The position numbers and the translations under genes are program-made. Shown here one piece after another: positions 14,057 to 28,860 of a stretch of DNA of 28,860 nt. Location: positions 1-28,860 of IMG/VR virus record IMGVR_UViG_3300034198_003563; one strand, given 5' to 3'. This stretch comes from a virus. The first letter of the stretch is position 1, and each line of letters starts with the position of its first letter. The notes below the pieces were generated by a model. It was not told the origin of the DNA, did not search any database, and saw only the letters and a program-made list of their open reading frames with translations.

Positions 14057-15001
14057 TTAGTAGGGTATAAATCTTGGTCCATATTCATCAATTGCTGCAA
14101 AGCCAAGTGTCCAGTCGTTCATCTTCTGGTTAGTATAACTTAAACCTTTTGATGTCGGATCTCCAGCCAATCCACAGTTTAACTCCCAAAGAACTTGGTT
14201 TTTAATGTTGCGATAAACAACTCCACCTTTATGTGTGTGTCCACCAACAAAGTTCATTTGCATAAAATCACGGTGCTGACCTAAGCGTGATCTATAGCCA
14301 TGATGAAATGCAATGTCTTCCAAAATAAACTCTTCTCTTGGATCAATCACGGTATGAACATTATCGAAAGTATATATGTCTTTGAAATATTTCTCTATCC
14401 AGTGCTCCATTGCTGGCATTACTTCAAGGGTTCTTTTGAGCACTCTTGCATCATGGTTGCCGATTAGCTGGATACACTTAGCTTTTGGTGCAGCTTTCTT
14501 CATTTCAGACCAGAACTCTTCAAGATTCTTTCTGGCAAGCTCTTCCTCTTGCTTTGGAGTAAATACATTATGTGATCGTGGAAACTTGCCCCACGAATAC
14601 TGGTCCATAGCATCTCCAAGTTGAATAATGTATTCAGGTTTAAACTTCTCAACAAAGAGTTTAAAATCTTGTTTTAAACTTGCATGGCTAAATGGTTCAT
14701 GCAGATCTCCAAGGCAAGCAATCTTAGGATAGGATTTTCTTTTTTGGATTGTATTATCTTGGTGGTTATCAATGTGCTCAGCGATGTCTACTCTAAAAAT
14801 CTCATTGGTTAATCTTTTGGCTTTTGGTGCGGGTTCTAGTCCTGCTGCTTGAATCATGATTGGATAACTTCCAAAGTTCTTATAAATCTGGCTATTGCTC
14901 ATGATCGTTGTAATTTCATGCCAATAGGGTGTCCTACCTAACTCGATCGCAAGCTCACGAAGCTTGTTAATCAGCTCTTGCTGCTTTAAAGGATCTGCCA
15001 T
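14057..15001 (-). CDS. Metallophosphoesterase with N-terminal HNH_repeat-like DNA-binding domain
   Basis: A 314-residue protein. Residues 92-300 are a calcineurin-type phosphoesterase with the complete metal set: GDLH (98-101), GDAMD (129-133), GNHD (181-184), HHG (233-235) and GGHTH (253-257). Residues ~8-57 match the HNH_repeat pattern (LRELAIELGRTPYWHEI, a YKNFGS turn, then IQAAGLEP), a small helical DNA-binding unit usually beside homing endonucleases. A nuclease or phosphatase acting on DNA ends is therefore likely. The ribosome site GGAGG lies 4 bases before the ATG. Substrate is not visible in sequence. Confidence 0.85.
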   Translation of the reverse strand: MADPLKQQELINKLRELAIELGRTPYWHEITTIMSNSQIYKNFGSYPIMIQAAGLEPAPKAKRLTNEIFRVDIAEHIDNHQDNTIQKRKSYPKIACLGDLHEPFSHASLKQDFKLFVEKFKPEYIIQLGDAMDQYSWGKFPRSHNVFTPKQEEELARKNLEEFWSEMKKAAPKAKCIQLIGNHDARVLKRTLEVMPAMEHWIEKYFKDIYTFDNVHTVIDPREEFILEDIAFHHGYRSRLGQHRDFMQMNFVGGHTHKGGVVYRNIKNQVLWELNCGLAGDPTSKGLSYTNQKMNDWTLGFAAIDEYGPRFIPY

Positions 15002-16047: not shown

Positions 16048-16072
16048 AGCCTTAATTGGCTTTTACTAAGCC
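16048..16072 (+). promoter_or_regulatory. Competing leader hairpins (attenuator-like)
   Basis: AGCC (16048-16051) can pair with GGCT (16058-16061). Alternatively GGCTT (16058-16062) can pair with AAGCC (16068-16072), which is also the 5' arm of the terminator that follows. The first two pairings exclude each other, and the second would open the terminator. This is the logic of an attenuator, although the stems are only 4-5 bp against 11 bp for the terminator. Confidence 0.35.
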
Positions 16073-16113
16073 CTACGGATGTCTGAGTGCAATTCAAACC
16101 GTAGGGCTTTTTT
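16068..16113 (+). terminator. Strong intrinsic terminator in the leader of the replication gene
   Basis: A perfect 11-bp stem, AAGCCCTACGG (16068-16078) with CCGTAGGGCTT (16099-16109), has a 20-base loop and a run of six T (16108-16113). It points along the plus strand and ends only 15 bases before the ATG of the initiator gene, so it cannot close an upstream plus-strand gene (there is none). It should make a short RNA of ~70 bases or gate expression of the replication operon. Confidence 0.8.
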
Positions 16114-16127
16114 AATCTAAGGGTTGC

Positions 16128-16955
16128 ATGGAATATTTTAAGCATTTTACTTCTGCACATGAAAGCAATTCACTAATAACGCTTCGCGATTTATATGGAT
16201 CAGATGGTTATGCTGCATGGTTTATATTGTTAGAAATGTGTGCTCAAAAAATGCACAAACAATACGGAGGAACATTTACAGAAGATGATTGCAAGTTCAT
16301 CTTTAGTGAAAGATTAGTTCGGGAGAAGTTACGCTTAAGATCAACTAAAGTTGAACTAATCCTGAACTCTTGTTCAACTTTGAATCTACTTGAAGTCACT
16401 AAAGTTGAAGATAAGTTTCACTTCTATATTCCTAAGTTGTTGGAATCATTAGATAGAGACCAAAGAAGAGCGCGGCAAGTGCGCGACAACGCCGCGCAAA
16501 TAGCGCGCCTAGAAATAAGAAATAAGAATATAAGAAATAAGAATATAAGAAATAAGAAATTAGAAACTTCTGAAAGCGCACAAAATGCGCTTCAGTCTGT
16601 TGAGAGTTCTGGATCTAAATTATTTAAAGTTTATTCAGAAGCATTCTTAAATAGGTACGGTGTAACACCTACCAGAAATGCAAAGGTTAACAAAAATTGT
16701 CAACAAATATACGACAGACTTGGAGAGGATGCTTTTGAGGTGGTAAAGTTTTTTCTAACTCATAATGATTCATTTTATTTACGCACTCAACATCCGATCG
16801 GATCTTTGTTAAGAGATGCTGAATCTTTGCATACCCAATGGAAGCGCGGACAAGCAGTAACTGGAACTCAAGTTAGGCAATTTGAACGTTTACAAGCAAC
16901 TAAAGATGCTGCTACAGAAGCAGCAGATTATTTCAAACAAAAGGAGAAATTATGA
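16128..16955 (+). CDS. Putative replication initiator, DnaD-like / DUF4373-type winged helix
   Basis: A 275-residue protein. Residues 1-105 (YFKHFTSAHESN, LYGSDGYAAWFILLEMCAQ) match the N-terminal winged-helix domain of phage replisome organisers. Residues ~108-150 are a basic linker with Arg-rich and NKNIR repeats. The C-terminal part is helical (FFLTHNDSFYLR, HPIGSLLRDAE). Like lambda O, it probably binds an origin inside its own gene; the DNA coding for the linker has an origin-like layout (separate entry). It is first in the operon with the loader-like gene and overlaps it by 4 bases. The ribosome site is weak (GGG, 4 bases from the ATG). Confidence 0.7.
   Translation: MEYFKHFTSAHESNSLITLRDLYGSDGYAAWFILLEMCAQKMHKQYGGTFTEDDCKFIFSERLVREKLRLRSTKVELILNSCSTLNLLEVTKVEDKFHFYIPKLLESLDRDQRRARQVRDNAAQIARLEIRNKNIRNKNIRNKKLETSESAQNALQSVESSGSKLFKVYSEAFLNRYGVTPTRNAKVNKNCQQIYDRLGEDAFEVVKFFLTHNDSFYLRTQHPIGSLLRDAESLHTQWKRGQAVTGTQVRQFERLQATKDAATEAADYFKQKEKL
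16470..16592. other. Candidate replication origin inside the initiator gene
   Basis: Four GCGCG-type motifs (16470-16474, 16481-16485, 16493-16497, 16503-16508) are spaced 10-12 bases apart, one helical turn, in a genome otherwise poor in G+C. Next comes a pure AT-rich purine tract with two exact 15-base direct repeats (16518-16532 and 16533-16547) and partial copies either side, and then an inverted repeat AAGCGCA/TGCGCTT (16574-16580, 16586-16592). Binding-site array plus easily melted repeats inside an initiator gene is the lambda-type origin plan. Binding itself is inferred. Confidence 0.55.
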
Positions 16956-17485
16956 TTGCTAGTGAGAAGGAGCAAATTGCAAAGATTTTAGCGGTTCATG
17001 CAGAAATCAATAATAAGTCCTTATCTGCTGCTGCAATAATCATCATGGTAGAGGCTTTAGAGGATTTGGATTTTAATTCAGTTTATTCAGCTTTAAAAAA
17101 TTGGAATAAAAATAATAAAAATTTTCCATATCCATCAGACATTAGAAAATTAATTTCTCCAGAAGAAACTGATGAAGATAATTCTCAAGATGTTGCAAAT
17201 GCAATTATCGCTGCAATTTCTAAATACGGTTATACAAATAAAGAAAATGCTGAATCGTATATTGGATCACTAGGCTGGGAAGTGGTTATAAGAATGGGAG
17301 GATGGAGACATCTTTGTGAGGTTGTCACGCATGAAAATGAAGGCATCTATCGTGCTCAGATCAGAGATTACTGTGGAACAATTTCTCGAAAAATGAAACG
17401 TGGTGATTTAAACAAAATGCCTGAACTAACTTCAAGCGATGAAATCAAAAATATTATTAACAACTCATTTATTGGTATCGAATGA
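16952..17485 (+). CDS. Putative helicase loader
   Basis: A 177-residue protein without a Walker motif. The N-terminal ~70 residues (helix, then YSALKNWNKNNKNFPYPSDIRKLI) follow the pattern of G40P-type loader/inhibitor proteins and other phage DnaB loaders, where a short helical domain ends in a 'FP-x-P-x-D-I' turn. The remainder is helical with GGWRHLCEVV. Its place directly after the initiator gene (ATGA overlap) fits an O/P-like pair that captures the host helicase. Function by analogy; a general replication accessory is possible. Confidence 0.55.
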   Translation: MIASEKEQIAKILAVHAEINNKSLSAAAIIIMVEALEDLDFNSVYSALKNWNKNNKNFPYPSDIRKLISPEETDEDNSQDVANAIIAAISKYGYTNKENAESYIGSLGWEVVIRMGGWRHLCEVVTHENEGIYRAQIRDYCGTISRKMKRGDLNKMPELTSSDEIKNIINNSFIGIE

Positions 17486-17788: not shown

Positions 17789-17859
17789 AGCCTGTTAGCT
17801 CAGTGGTTAGAGTGAATGAATAAAAACATTAGGTCGGGAGTTCAAATCTCTCACAGGCT
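17789..17859 (+). tRNA. tRNA-like element with abnormal anticodon arm (possible pseudo-tRNA)
   Basis: Acceptor AGCCTGT (17789-17795) pairs perfectly with ACAGGCT (17853-17859). D arm GCTC/GAGT has loop AGTGGTTA. T arm GGGAG/CTCTC has the canonical loop TTCAAAT (17841-17847). The anticodon arm (17815-17830) is only 16 bases. It forms a 4-bp stem AATG/CATT with an 8-base loop AATAAAAA, not the normal 5-bp stem and 7-base loop. If T17821 is U33 the anticodon would be AAA, but the geometry is wrong. CCA is not encoded; T residues follow. It lies alone between two genes. Confidence 0.6.
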
Positions 17860-17873
17860 TTTTTAGGAGAATT

Positions 17874-19522: not shown

Positions 19523-20698
19523 ATGATCGAAATTAAATGTAAAGCCGAAAACTTCAAGCTCATTCCTATTGAGCAAATTATACCAAATCCAAAAAACAAT
19601 AACCGTCACTCAATCGAGCAGATCAATGCTATTGCTAAGTTAATTAAGGCACATGGATTTCGTGAACCGTTGACGATTTCGAATCGCTCTGGATTCCTTA
19701 ACTGTGGTCACGCTCGCTTAGAAGCCGCAAAGATTCTAGGCATGAAAGAGCTTCCTGTTATTTATCAAGACTTCGCATCTGAGGCAGAAGAATATCAGCA
19801 CATGACAGCAGATAACGAGATCGCTCGCTGGGCAGAGTTAGACTTCCAAGGTGTTTACGATGCGCTGAAAGAGATTCCAGACATTGATACAAGCCTTCTT
19901 GGTATTGAAGATTTTAAATTGCCTGAAGTAGTAGAGCCTCAATGCGATGAGGACGAAGTTCCAGAAGCACCAGTTGAACCGATTACTAAACTCGGTGATA
20001 TTTATAAACTTGGGAATCATCGATTAATGTGTGGTGATTCGACAAGCATTGATGCGGTTGAGAAGTTGATGGATGGGAATAAGGCAGACATGGTGTTTAC
20101 TGATCCTCCATACGGAGTCTCATATCAATCAAACATGAGAACGAAATCAGAAAAGTTTGATGTTATTAAAAATGATGAAACATTTATTTCTGAATGGATA
20201 AACGTATTGCCAGTAGTAAGTCATGGATGGGTATTCGTATGGACTTCATGGAAAGTTATTTCTGAATGGATTGATATATGTGCTCCTATTGGAGACATGA
20301 CTAATATGATTATCTGGGATAAAGGCGGAGGAGGTATCGGAGACTTAACTGGAACTTTCTCGAGTGATTATGAAATTGCACTTGTTTATAATCGTGGCGC
20401 AAAAATTACTGGCAAAAGACTTGGTAGCGTTTGGAGTGTTGGAAAAGATAAATCAATTGAATATGTTCATCCGACACAGAAACCAGTTGAACTTGGAGAG
20501 ATGGCTTTAAATAATTGCACTAATTATAAAGATAATATTTTAGATCTTTTCGGAGGATCTGGTTCTACATTAATTGGATGCGAAAAAAATAACAGGAACG
20601 GATTTCTAATGGAACTTGATCCTAAATACTGCGACGTTATTGTAGATAGATGGGAGAAATTCACAGGAAAGAAAGCTGAGTTAATCAATGGCTGTTAA
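19523..20698 (+). CDS. ParB-like domain fused to a beta-class DNA methyltransferase
   Basis: A 391-residue protein. Residues 10-130 are ParB/sulfiredoxin-like (NPKNNNRHS, then CGHARLEAAK 61-70). Residues 155-385 form an N4-cytosine/N6-adenine methyltransferase. The catalytic DPPY is at 194-197, HPTQKP at 316-321, and the AdoMet motif DLFGGSGST at 341-349, an order that marks the beta class. It should modify phage DNA against host restriction. The gene overlaps terS by 11 bases, linking it to packaging. Base composition falls sharply right after the DPPY codons (see findings). Ribosome site GGAAAG, weak. Confidence 0.85.
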   Translation: MIEIKCKAENFKLIPIEQIIPNPKNNNRHSIEQINAIAKLIKAHGFREPLTISNRSGFLNCGHARLEAAKILGMKELPVIYQDFASEAEEYQHMTADNEIARWAELDFQGVYDALKEIPDIDTSLLGIEDFKLPEVVEPQCDEDEVPEAPVEPITKLGDIYKLGNHRLMCGDSTSIDAVEKLMDGNKADMVFTDPPYGVSYQSNMRTKSEKFDVIKNDETFISEWINVLPVVSHGWVFVWTSWKVISEWIDICAPIGDMTNMIIWDKGGGGIGDLTGTFSSDYEIALVYNRGAKITGKRLGSVWSVGKDKSIEYVHPTQKPVELGEMALNNCTNYKDNILDLFGGSGSTLIGCEKNNRNGFLMELDPKYCDVIVDRWEKFTGKKAELINGC

Positions 20699-27159: not shown

Positions 27160-28860
27160 ATAGTCCACATATTGTTAGAAAATCAAGCTCACCTTCAAGC
27201 GCTCCTGTGGAAGCCGGTATCCATTGGATCAATACAACTACAAAAGAAGAGTATTTTTCTGTTGGAACTTCATCAATCAATGATTGGATTAAAAGAGGAA
27301 CAACTAACACAGCAGATGCGCTTGTTACTACTGTCTGGAACCAGACAGGATCTTCAATCCCTGCATTCAGCGTTGTTTATATTAATGGATCTCAAGGAAC
27401 TCTTCCGACAGTAGCACTCTCTCAAGCAAATTCTGAGGCAGCGTCAACAGGAACTTATGGAATTACAACAGCGTCAATTGCAAATAATGCGCAGGGAACT
27501 GTTGTAGCTTTTGGTTTATTAGAAAATGTTAATACAAACTCATTTACAGATGGTGATAAATTGTGGCTTAGTCCAACTGTTGCAGGTGGAGTTACTACTA
27601 CAAAGCCTGTTGCACCTAACCATAGTGTATTTATTGGTACTGTTACCAGAGCACATCCTAGCCTTGGTAGAGTAGAAGTTAAAATTGCAAATGGATATGA
27701 GTTAGAAGAATTGCATAATGTTTTAATTACAACTCCAGCCAACAATCAGGTTCTGAGCTATGATTCAGCAACATCATTGTGGAAAAACACAACACCAAAT
27801 GCAGGAACTGTAACGGCTGTTTCAGTGGCATCTTCAAATGGATTTGCTGGAAGTGTTGCAAATGCTTCTACAACTCCAACAATTACTCTTTCAACATCAG
27901 TTAGTGGTATTTTAAAAGGTAATGGAACATCAATTAGTTCCGCAACATCTGGAACAGACTACGAACCACCAGTAACAAAAGGTAACTTAACAGAATCAAC
28001 ATCATCTGTTCTAACTGTAACTGGTGGAACTGGATCTGTTATCGGATCAGGAACAACGATACAGGTAAAAAAAGCAAGCGCCACGCAAGATGGATACCTT
28101 GGAAGCTCTGACTGGACAACATTTAACAACAAACAAAATGCCATTACTGGTGCAGCATCAACGATTACCACTACTGATTTAACACAAAATAGGGTTTTAT
28201 TATCTGATGCGTCTGGAAAGGTGTCTGCATCAACTGTAAATAATGTCACCCTTGGATACCTTGATGCTTCATCTAGTATTCAAACACAGCTTAATTCTAA
28301 ACAAGCAACGATTACAGGTGCAGCTAGTACAATTACAACAGCAAATCTAACAGCATCTAAGGCTTTAGTTTCAGATGGGTCAGGCAAGGTTGTTGCATCT
28401 TCTGTTGCTAGTTCTACGCTAGATTTTTTAGATGCTACATCAAGCGTACAAACTCAACTAAACTCTAAAACATCTCTTGGATCTTCTGCACCATCAAACG
28501 TTAGTTCTGCCGGTTCAGTGGGTATTGCTACTGACGCAGCTAGAAGCGATCATGCTCACAGGGGTATTTCATCATTTTCTAAAAATGGTAGCTCTCAGCT
28601 TTTTGGTGATGTGACAATATCTGCTGGCACTGGTGTTACACTGACTCAATCTGGTCAAGATATTTCAATTGCATCAACAGGCGGAGGATCTGGAACGGTT
28701 ACAGATGTTTCTGTAGTTAGTTCAAACGGATTTGCTGGGACAGTTGCAAACTCAACTACAACTCCTGCGATTACTCTTTCAACTACTGTAACAGGATTGT
28801 TAAAGGGAAATGGAACCGCAATCAGTGCAGCATCTTCTGGAACTGATTATGAACCGCCAG
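27156..28860 (+). CDS. Long repetitive fibre / head-fibre protein (3' end outside window)
   Basis: Open to the right edge, at least 568 residues. An N-terminal domain (~1-190) carries a 'WINTTTKEEYF' element and a beta segment. Repeat blocks follow: two copies of the common phage fibre motif GTVTxVSVxSSNGFAG ... GNGTxISxAxSGTDYEPP (residues 217-272 and 513-568), and two copies of QAITGAASTITTxxLT ... TQLNSK (~330-440). A SDHAHR element (~466-471) suits a metal-bound trimeric fibre tip. The product is likely a fibre binding the host or decorating the head. It probably continues at base 1 if the molecule is circular. No stop codon was found. Confidence 0.75.
   Translation, partial: MNSPHIVRKSSSPSSAPVEAGIHWINTTTKEEYFSVGTSSINDWIKRGTTNTADALVTTVWNQTGSSIPAFSVVYINGSQGTLPTVALSQANSEAASTGTYGITTASIANNAQGTVVAFGLLENVNTNSFTDGDKLWLSPTVAGGVTTTKPVAPNHSVFIGTVTRAHPSLGRVEVKIANGYELEELHNVLITTPANNQVLSYDSATSLWKNTTPNAGTVTAVSVASSNGFAGSVANASTTPTITLSTSVSGILKGNGTSISSATSGTDYEPPVTKGNLTESTSSVLTVTGGTGSVIGSGTTIQVKKASATQDGYLGSSDWTTFNNKQNAITGAASTITTTDLTQNRVLLSDASGKVSASTVNNVTLGYLDASSSIQTQLNSKQATITGAASTITTANLTASKALVSDGSGKVVASSVASSTLDFLDATSSVQTQLNSKTSLGSSAPSNVSSAGSVGIATDAARSDHAHRGISSFSKNGSSQLFGDVTISAGTGVTLTQSGQDISIASTGGGSGTVTDVSVVSSNGFAGTVANSTTTPAITLSTTVTGLLKGNGTAISAASSGTDYEPP
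27804..27971 (+). repeat. Fibre repeat, copy 1
   Basis: Codes for a 56-residue block (GTVTAVSVASSNGFAG ... SGTDYEPP) that recurs at 28692. The DNA differs at many third positions, so the copies are old or exchanged with other phages. Confidence 0.7.
28692..28859 (+). repeat. Fibre repeat, copy 2 (ends at window edge)
   Basis: Codes for GTVTDVSVVSSNGFAG ... SGTDYEPP, the second copy of the block at 27804, 888 bases away. The window ends one base after its last whole codon. Confidence 0.7.

Follow-up and report, generated by a model that had tools for sequence, protein, structure and literature searches.

An 11-bp CGCG array within the gene of a Lin1244_N-like phage initiator as a candidate replication origin

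The 28,860-base virus record analysed here in its entirety (the window) contains an ORF at positions 16128-16955 encoding a protein of 275 aa, and within that ORF a regular array of CGCG motifs is followed by an A-rich purine tract. This raises the question of whether the repeats act as DNA, and if so, whether they are the place where replication of the phage starts. From the sequence, the array region is a strong candidate for the phage replication origin, and in our estimation is highly likely to be one, situated where the phage's own initiator gene encodes the linker. By analogy with known systems the best reading is very probably a lambda-like in-gene origin, putatively bound by the N-terminal domain of the same initiator. 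The features concerned, all on the + strand, are the following.

16128-16955, + strand: replication initiator gene, 275 aa, with the array inside
16128-16466, + strand: N-terminal winged-helix DNA-binding domain of the Lin1244_N/DUF4373 type, residues 1-113 (AlphaFold2 model, structure match and profile match)
16467-16477, + strand: 11-bp unit 1, AGAGCGCGGCA, core CGCG at 16471-16474
16478-16488, + strand: 11-bp unit 2, AGTGCGCGACA, core CGCG at 16482-16485
16489-16499, + strand: 11-bp unit 3, ACGCCGCGCAA, core CGCG at 16493-16496
16500-16510, + strand: 11-bp unit 4, ATAGCGCGCCT, core CGCG at 16504-16507
16511-16566, + strand: A-rich purine tract with 15-bp repeats, a candidate DNA unwinding element (composition, exact repeats, relatives)
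16570-16595, + strand: GC inverted repeat (DNA fold −9.7 kcal/mol, z −2.8)
16617-16943, + strand: C-terminal domain, phrog_11527/O-like, the presumed helicase or loader contact
16952-17485, + strand: next gene, candidate helicase loader (weak match to the helicase loader family phrog_2289, E 0.0033)

On sequence grounds the protein is assigned as an initiator by family, with a Lin1244_N-like winged helix at the N-terminus and an O-like match at the C-terminus. Its C-terminal part matches phrog_11527 (E 2.6e-20) and, more weakly, O-like initiators, the profile matches including phrog_2562 (replication initiation) and phrog_391 (O-like). For Lin1244_N (PF14297) the protein scored 22.1 bits against a curated cut-off of 25, which its relative L092 passed in the genome search (25.3 bits), and comparison of the window N-terminus with clear Lin1244_N members over the cut-off gave a profile-profile probability of 98.4 (E 9e-15). 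In the AlphaFold2 model residues 11-100 fold as a winged helix, predicted well for the most part (block means of pLDDT as high as 92), and a single long helix, residues 102-151, runs through the linker. The best solved match of the N-terminal model was the RepA_N-type initiator domain 4pt7 (Z 9.1, rmsd 3.0, 91 residues aligned); the staphylococcal RepA_N-type plasmid initiator domains 4pt7, 4pql, 4pta and 5kbj together gave Z 7.9-9.1, with the next unrelated rows at 7.4. The lower-confidence model of L116, a clear Lin1244_N member, was likewise a winged helix and did not single out RepA_N, the CRP/FNR and ORC winged helices tying in this weaker model and 4pql reaching Z 7.4. RepA_N (PF06970) was not matched in the window protein at E 0.1, nor by a profile search against PDB sequences, and Phage_rep_O (PF04492) was absent from it in the Pfam search; because the sequence match is missing for both, the protein is claimed neither as a lambda O proper nor as a RepA_N member. 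Homologues of the candidate helicase loader gene also adjoin the initiator in L012, L022, L025, L029, L044 and L046, and DnaB-like helicase or AAA ATPase genes lie downstream of the initiators of relatives. The initiator start is preceded, at a distance of about 20 nt, by a strong terminator-like hairpin (16068-16109; 11-bp stem followed by T6; RNA fold −20.3 kcal/mol, z −4.7), a possible attenuator or antitermination target.

The array lies directly 3' of the winged-helix domain and before the purine tract. An earlier note on this DNA had described four GCGCG-type motifs 10-12 bases apart; the four motifs stand, but the spacing is tighter than stated, the palindromic core CGCG recurring at 16471, 16482, 16493 and 16504, exactly every 11 bp or about one turn of the helix. 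The four units were initially read as dyads, a view given up once the CGCG core showed that a simple 11-bp direct array describes them better. CGCG occurs only seven times in the 28,860 bases, and the pattern CGCG-N7-CGCG occurs three times in the window, in each case within the array, and not once in 100 dinucleotide shuffles. Synonymous recoding, in which the protein was kept and the codon usage was that of the phage itself, likewise failed to reproduce the array: codons 111-131 contain five GCGC, with a maximum of four in 20,000 recodings, the CGCG count in the same codons had P = 0.00055, and the lag-11 self-match was 22/33 as against a mean of 14.7 and a maximum of 20 in 1,000 recodings. 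A period of 11 bp is no whole number of codons and so cannot arise directly from a repeat in the protein; this, together with the recoding results, indicates that the array is constrained as DNA. Rare codons are used in it, namely CGG (3/245 Arg) and GCG (29/522 Ala). Codon conservation in the array exceeded that of the remaining N-terminal half no more than marginally in pairwise comparisons (p about 0.02-0.05; one pair 0.82).

The adjoining tract is about 84% A+T, 79% purine and 66% A, which makes it the extreme of the window for purine and A content (a fraction of about 1e-4 among all 58-bp windows) and places its A+T content in the top 0.2%. The exact 15-base repeats reported earlier were found, with ATAAGAAATAAGAAT at 16515 and 16530 and 14 bases of it again at 16545. 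These repeats are in frame, so that the DNA and protein levels are inseparable in the tract. A search with the exact purine-tract pattern gave one match, at an unrelated intergenic site. The GC inverted repeat, present as noted at 16570-16595, is not conserved, being absent from L092, L022 and L096, and is probably not essential; the idea that its GCGC motifs at 16576 and 16587 make up a further set of iterons was set aside because the relatives lack it. GC skew showed no local minimum at the array and was uninformative, being confounded by gene direction, with strand switches nearby. The DnaA-box consensus TTATNCACA had zero matches across the whole 28,860-base window.

Full-length homologues were found via alignments of the C-terminal and N-terminal domains; short peptide patterns used to search directly for whole-protein relatives found none, and the terminase relatives L009-L011 are without the initiator. 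All four CGCG cores recur at 11 bp in L092 (protein about 40% identical to that of the window), L022 (about 34%) and L096, which with the window makes 16/16 cores in four phages, and the loss of phasing in relatives that the earlier note had named as evidence against its idea was therefore not seen. The cores are unchanged although L022, L096 and the window encode different residues there, and an A-rich purine tract, with differing repeat units, is present at the same place in all close relatives. In L096 the array precedes a C-terminus without a phrog_11527 match; among the array-bearing genes scanned in this branch (group A) the match was missing only in L095 and L096, and a swapped C-terminus in L092 was ruled out by a phrog_11527 match at 7.6e-7. 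Further away within this N-terminal family the motif differs and the 11-bp period persists, with AGGCCT in L095, CTCGGGAG in L097 and five to six TCAAGA-type units in L098 (lag-11 match 32/33). Lag 11 rose above synonymous recoding (z > 3) in 7/9 group A genes. Exceptions to the 11-bp signal are L044 (not significant, p 0.54) and L099 (marginal, p 0.04).

A second branch (group B), which includes E. coli phage mEp515 and Vibrio and Pseudoalteromonas phages, is homologous to the window family by profile comparison (98.4%, E 9e-15). Among its 55 dereplicated genes, 53/87 adjacent pairs of GTCATGA-like units were 11 bp apart, and 41/55 genes had a GTCATGA-like pair at 11, 22 or 33 bp (recoded mean 9.6, maximum 15), a clear pair being lacking in the other 14. 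The 10-bp lag was as strong as the 11-bp lag in this group and is assigned, from the sequences, to 5-bp GATTA-like units of the downstream tract. The Listeria phages A118, A006 and B025 lacked a PF14297 match. The spacing of 11 bp is thus kept while the motif changes among Lin1244_N/DUF4373-type initiators, and it is this shared spacing with changed motif, in group A and its relatives, which argues that the region is very probably a replication origin. The array type belongs to a wide family, and its supposed distinctiveness in the window phage was not upheld.

When the same lag method was applied to the lambda O gene, it gave lags of 20, 23 and 24 bp, in agreement with the annotated iterons, which start at 39034, 39054, 39078 and 39101 (steps of 20, 24 and 23 bp). 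Genes of the same C-terminal family with other N-termini reached z > 3 at lag 23 in 19/39 cases, at lag 22 in 11/39 and at lag 11 in 6/39; a Pfam scan of ten such proteins detected Lin1244_N in 0/10 and a weak HTH_36 match in 1/10. As lag 11 prevails in 7/9 group A genes and the peak lies at 22-23 bp with other N-termini, the period follows the N-terminal module. These sister initiators without Lin1244_N (L012-L091) mostly have 22-23 bp in-gene arrays of very varied motifs, and one O-like initiator (L029:3308-4321) carries an HNH endonuclease domain at residues 142-185, where it separates the N-terminal part from the C-terminal domain. Natural exchanges were apparent in E. coli prophages. A gene of the mEp515 type, over at least 80% of its length, is present in 26/5,426 complete E. 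coli genomes. L198 has GGTCATGA-type units at 11 bp, L196 has a Lin1244_N N-terminus similar to that of L198 and CCATGG-type units at 11 bp, and L197 has the same C-terminal half (about 92% identical DNA), its N-terminus being of the HTH_36 type and its lag 22-23 bp. Comparison of the three therefore indicates that domain and array change together.

The layout of the window has known counterparts. In lambda O/ori-lambda and in the O genes of Stx phages the origin likewise lies within the gene for the initiator, where it separates the DNA-binding domain from the C-terminal one, and consists of four iterons followed by an A-rich tract; the window has this lambda-O-type architecture, with in-gene repeats between domains and an A-rich, strand-asymmetric tract directly beside them. 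The earlier statement that lambda O follows the same plan with different motifs is thus supported, the window protein being an initiator by family. The lambda iterons, however, are 18 bp long at 20-24 bp spacing whereas the window units measure 11 bp, and the lambda O N-terminus is PF04492 (123 bits) whereas that of the window is Lin1244_N-like. Some relatives have an O-like C-terminus, as in XM1 (phrog_391, E 3e-39). The closest solved fold to the model of the window N-terminal domain is that of the RepA_N plasmid initiators (pSK41, pTZ2162) and PLE RepA; the pSK41 origin is located within the rep coding region (PMC5703833) and the C-termini of RepA_N initiators vary with host (PMC7145576). 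RepA_N iterons are described as semi-palindromic repeats in which a poly-A tract is flanked by inverted arms of 8-9 bp, in contrast to the short palindromes every 11 bp of the window. The replisome organizers of the lactococcal phages TP901-1 and Tuc2009 bind direct repeats in their own gene, which form the phage origin (PMC8965321); by Pfam, TP901-1 Rep is HTH_36 plus DnaB_2, and its gene has lags of 15 and 22, not 11. The Lin1244/Lin1753 (DUF4373) proteins of E. coli, Vibrio and Pseudoalteromonas phages, mostly annotated as hypothetical or of unknown function, have a homologous N-terminal domain and 11-bp in-gene arrays, but differ from the window in motif (GTCATGA, CCATGG) and C-terminal domain. 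Searches of the open-licence literature turned up neither a replication role for DUF4373 or Lin1244 nor a phage origin made of 11-bp repeats within a gene. The in-gene origin as such is already known from lambda, TP901-1 and pSK41, and what would be new is the 11-bp array of Lin1244_N/DUF4373 initiators, which we did not find in that literature.

Lambda, the Stx phages, TP901-1 and pSK41 also suggest how such an origin might work. Copies of the N-terminal winged-helix domain would bind neighbouring units along a single face of the helix, each 11-bp unit taking about one protomer or each 22 bp one dimer, and the resulting nucleoprotein complex would strain and melt the adjacent A-rich tract. 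The exchangeable C-terminal domain would then recruit the helicase loader or helicase putatively encoded by the following gene. Since they adjoin in the DNA, array and DNA-binding domain could be exchanged together as a self-matching cassette. A wider proposal, for which we see about as much in favour as against, is that phage initiators of the Lin1244_N/DUF4373 type generally encode their origin as an 11-bp one-turn palindrome array in the linker, to which the protein binds in a continuous filament of one protomer per turn. This would set them apart from lambda O with its 20-24 bp iterons and from the sister genes with their 22-23 bp arrays. The proposal further holds that DNA-binding domain and origin form one swappable cassette whose specificity is readable from each gene.

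Three other accounts of the array have to be weighed. It could be an autoregulatory operator, at which the initiator binds within its own gene and blocks transcription while replication starts elsewhere. Winged-helix proteins are often repressors, and the terminator-like hairpin upstream (16068-16109) suggests controlled expression; on the other hand, about 340 bp of the gene precede the site, every close relative has an A-rich purine tract next to the array, as fits melting and not repression, and the same layout serves as origin in lambda, Stx phages, TP901-1 and pSK41, which leaves the operator improbable. Still less probable, and distinctly so, is a cause at the protein level, in which a long basic helix (RARQVRDNAAQIARLEIRNKNIRNK) was selected and the DNA repeats are its by-product. 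The modelled helix 102-151, the in-frame 15-bp repeats of the tract and the fact that 11 bp correspond to about 3.7 residues, near one helical turn, would all suit such an origin of the repeats. Yet the array was lost on synonymous recoding with the protein kept, the rare codons CGG and GCG are used in it, and the residues vary among L022, L096 and the window where the cores are constant.

The least probable account, to which we attach hardly any weight, is a chance cluster joined to functionless simple repeats made by slippage. The tract is indeed low in complexity and its repeat length varies among relatives, but the absence of any match in 100 shuffles and the 11-bp register in independent phages with different motifs speak against it. 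A replication origin bound by the initiator's own N-terminal domain is therefore retained as the preferred reading. It would offer a function and a binding site for the many phage proteins that now bear the label hypothetical, DUF4373 or Lin1244, those of E. coli, Vibrio and Pseudoalteromonas phages among them, and would predict the origins of these phages to the base. With DNA-binding domain and target in each gene, hundreds of natural protein-site pairs would become available, from which it might be learned how a winged-helix domain changes specificity with the spacing fixed, and the cassette idea is open to direct test in a laboratory strain, through E. coli prophages with a common C-terminal half but a different N-terminus and array type.

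Several further features of the window were observed. A tRNA gene is located on the + strand in the replication region (17789-17860; Rfam RF00005, 51.9 bits). The ORF at 14057-15001 encodes a metallophosphoesterase with an N-terminal homing-endonuclease-associated repeat (PF18780), and that at 19523-20698 a ParB-like N-terminal domain fused to an N6/N4 DNA methyltransferase. The segment 21553-28860 is 99.96% identical over 7,308 bases to contig L011 from another metagenome record, and its terminal part (27804-28860) contains internal repeats of about 73-75% identity in an open-ended ORF at the 3' end.
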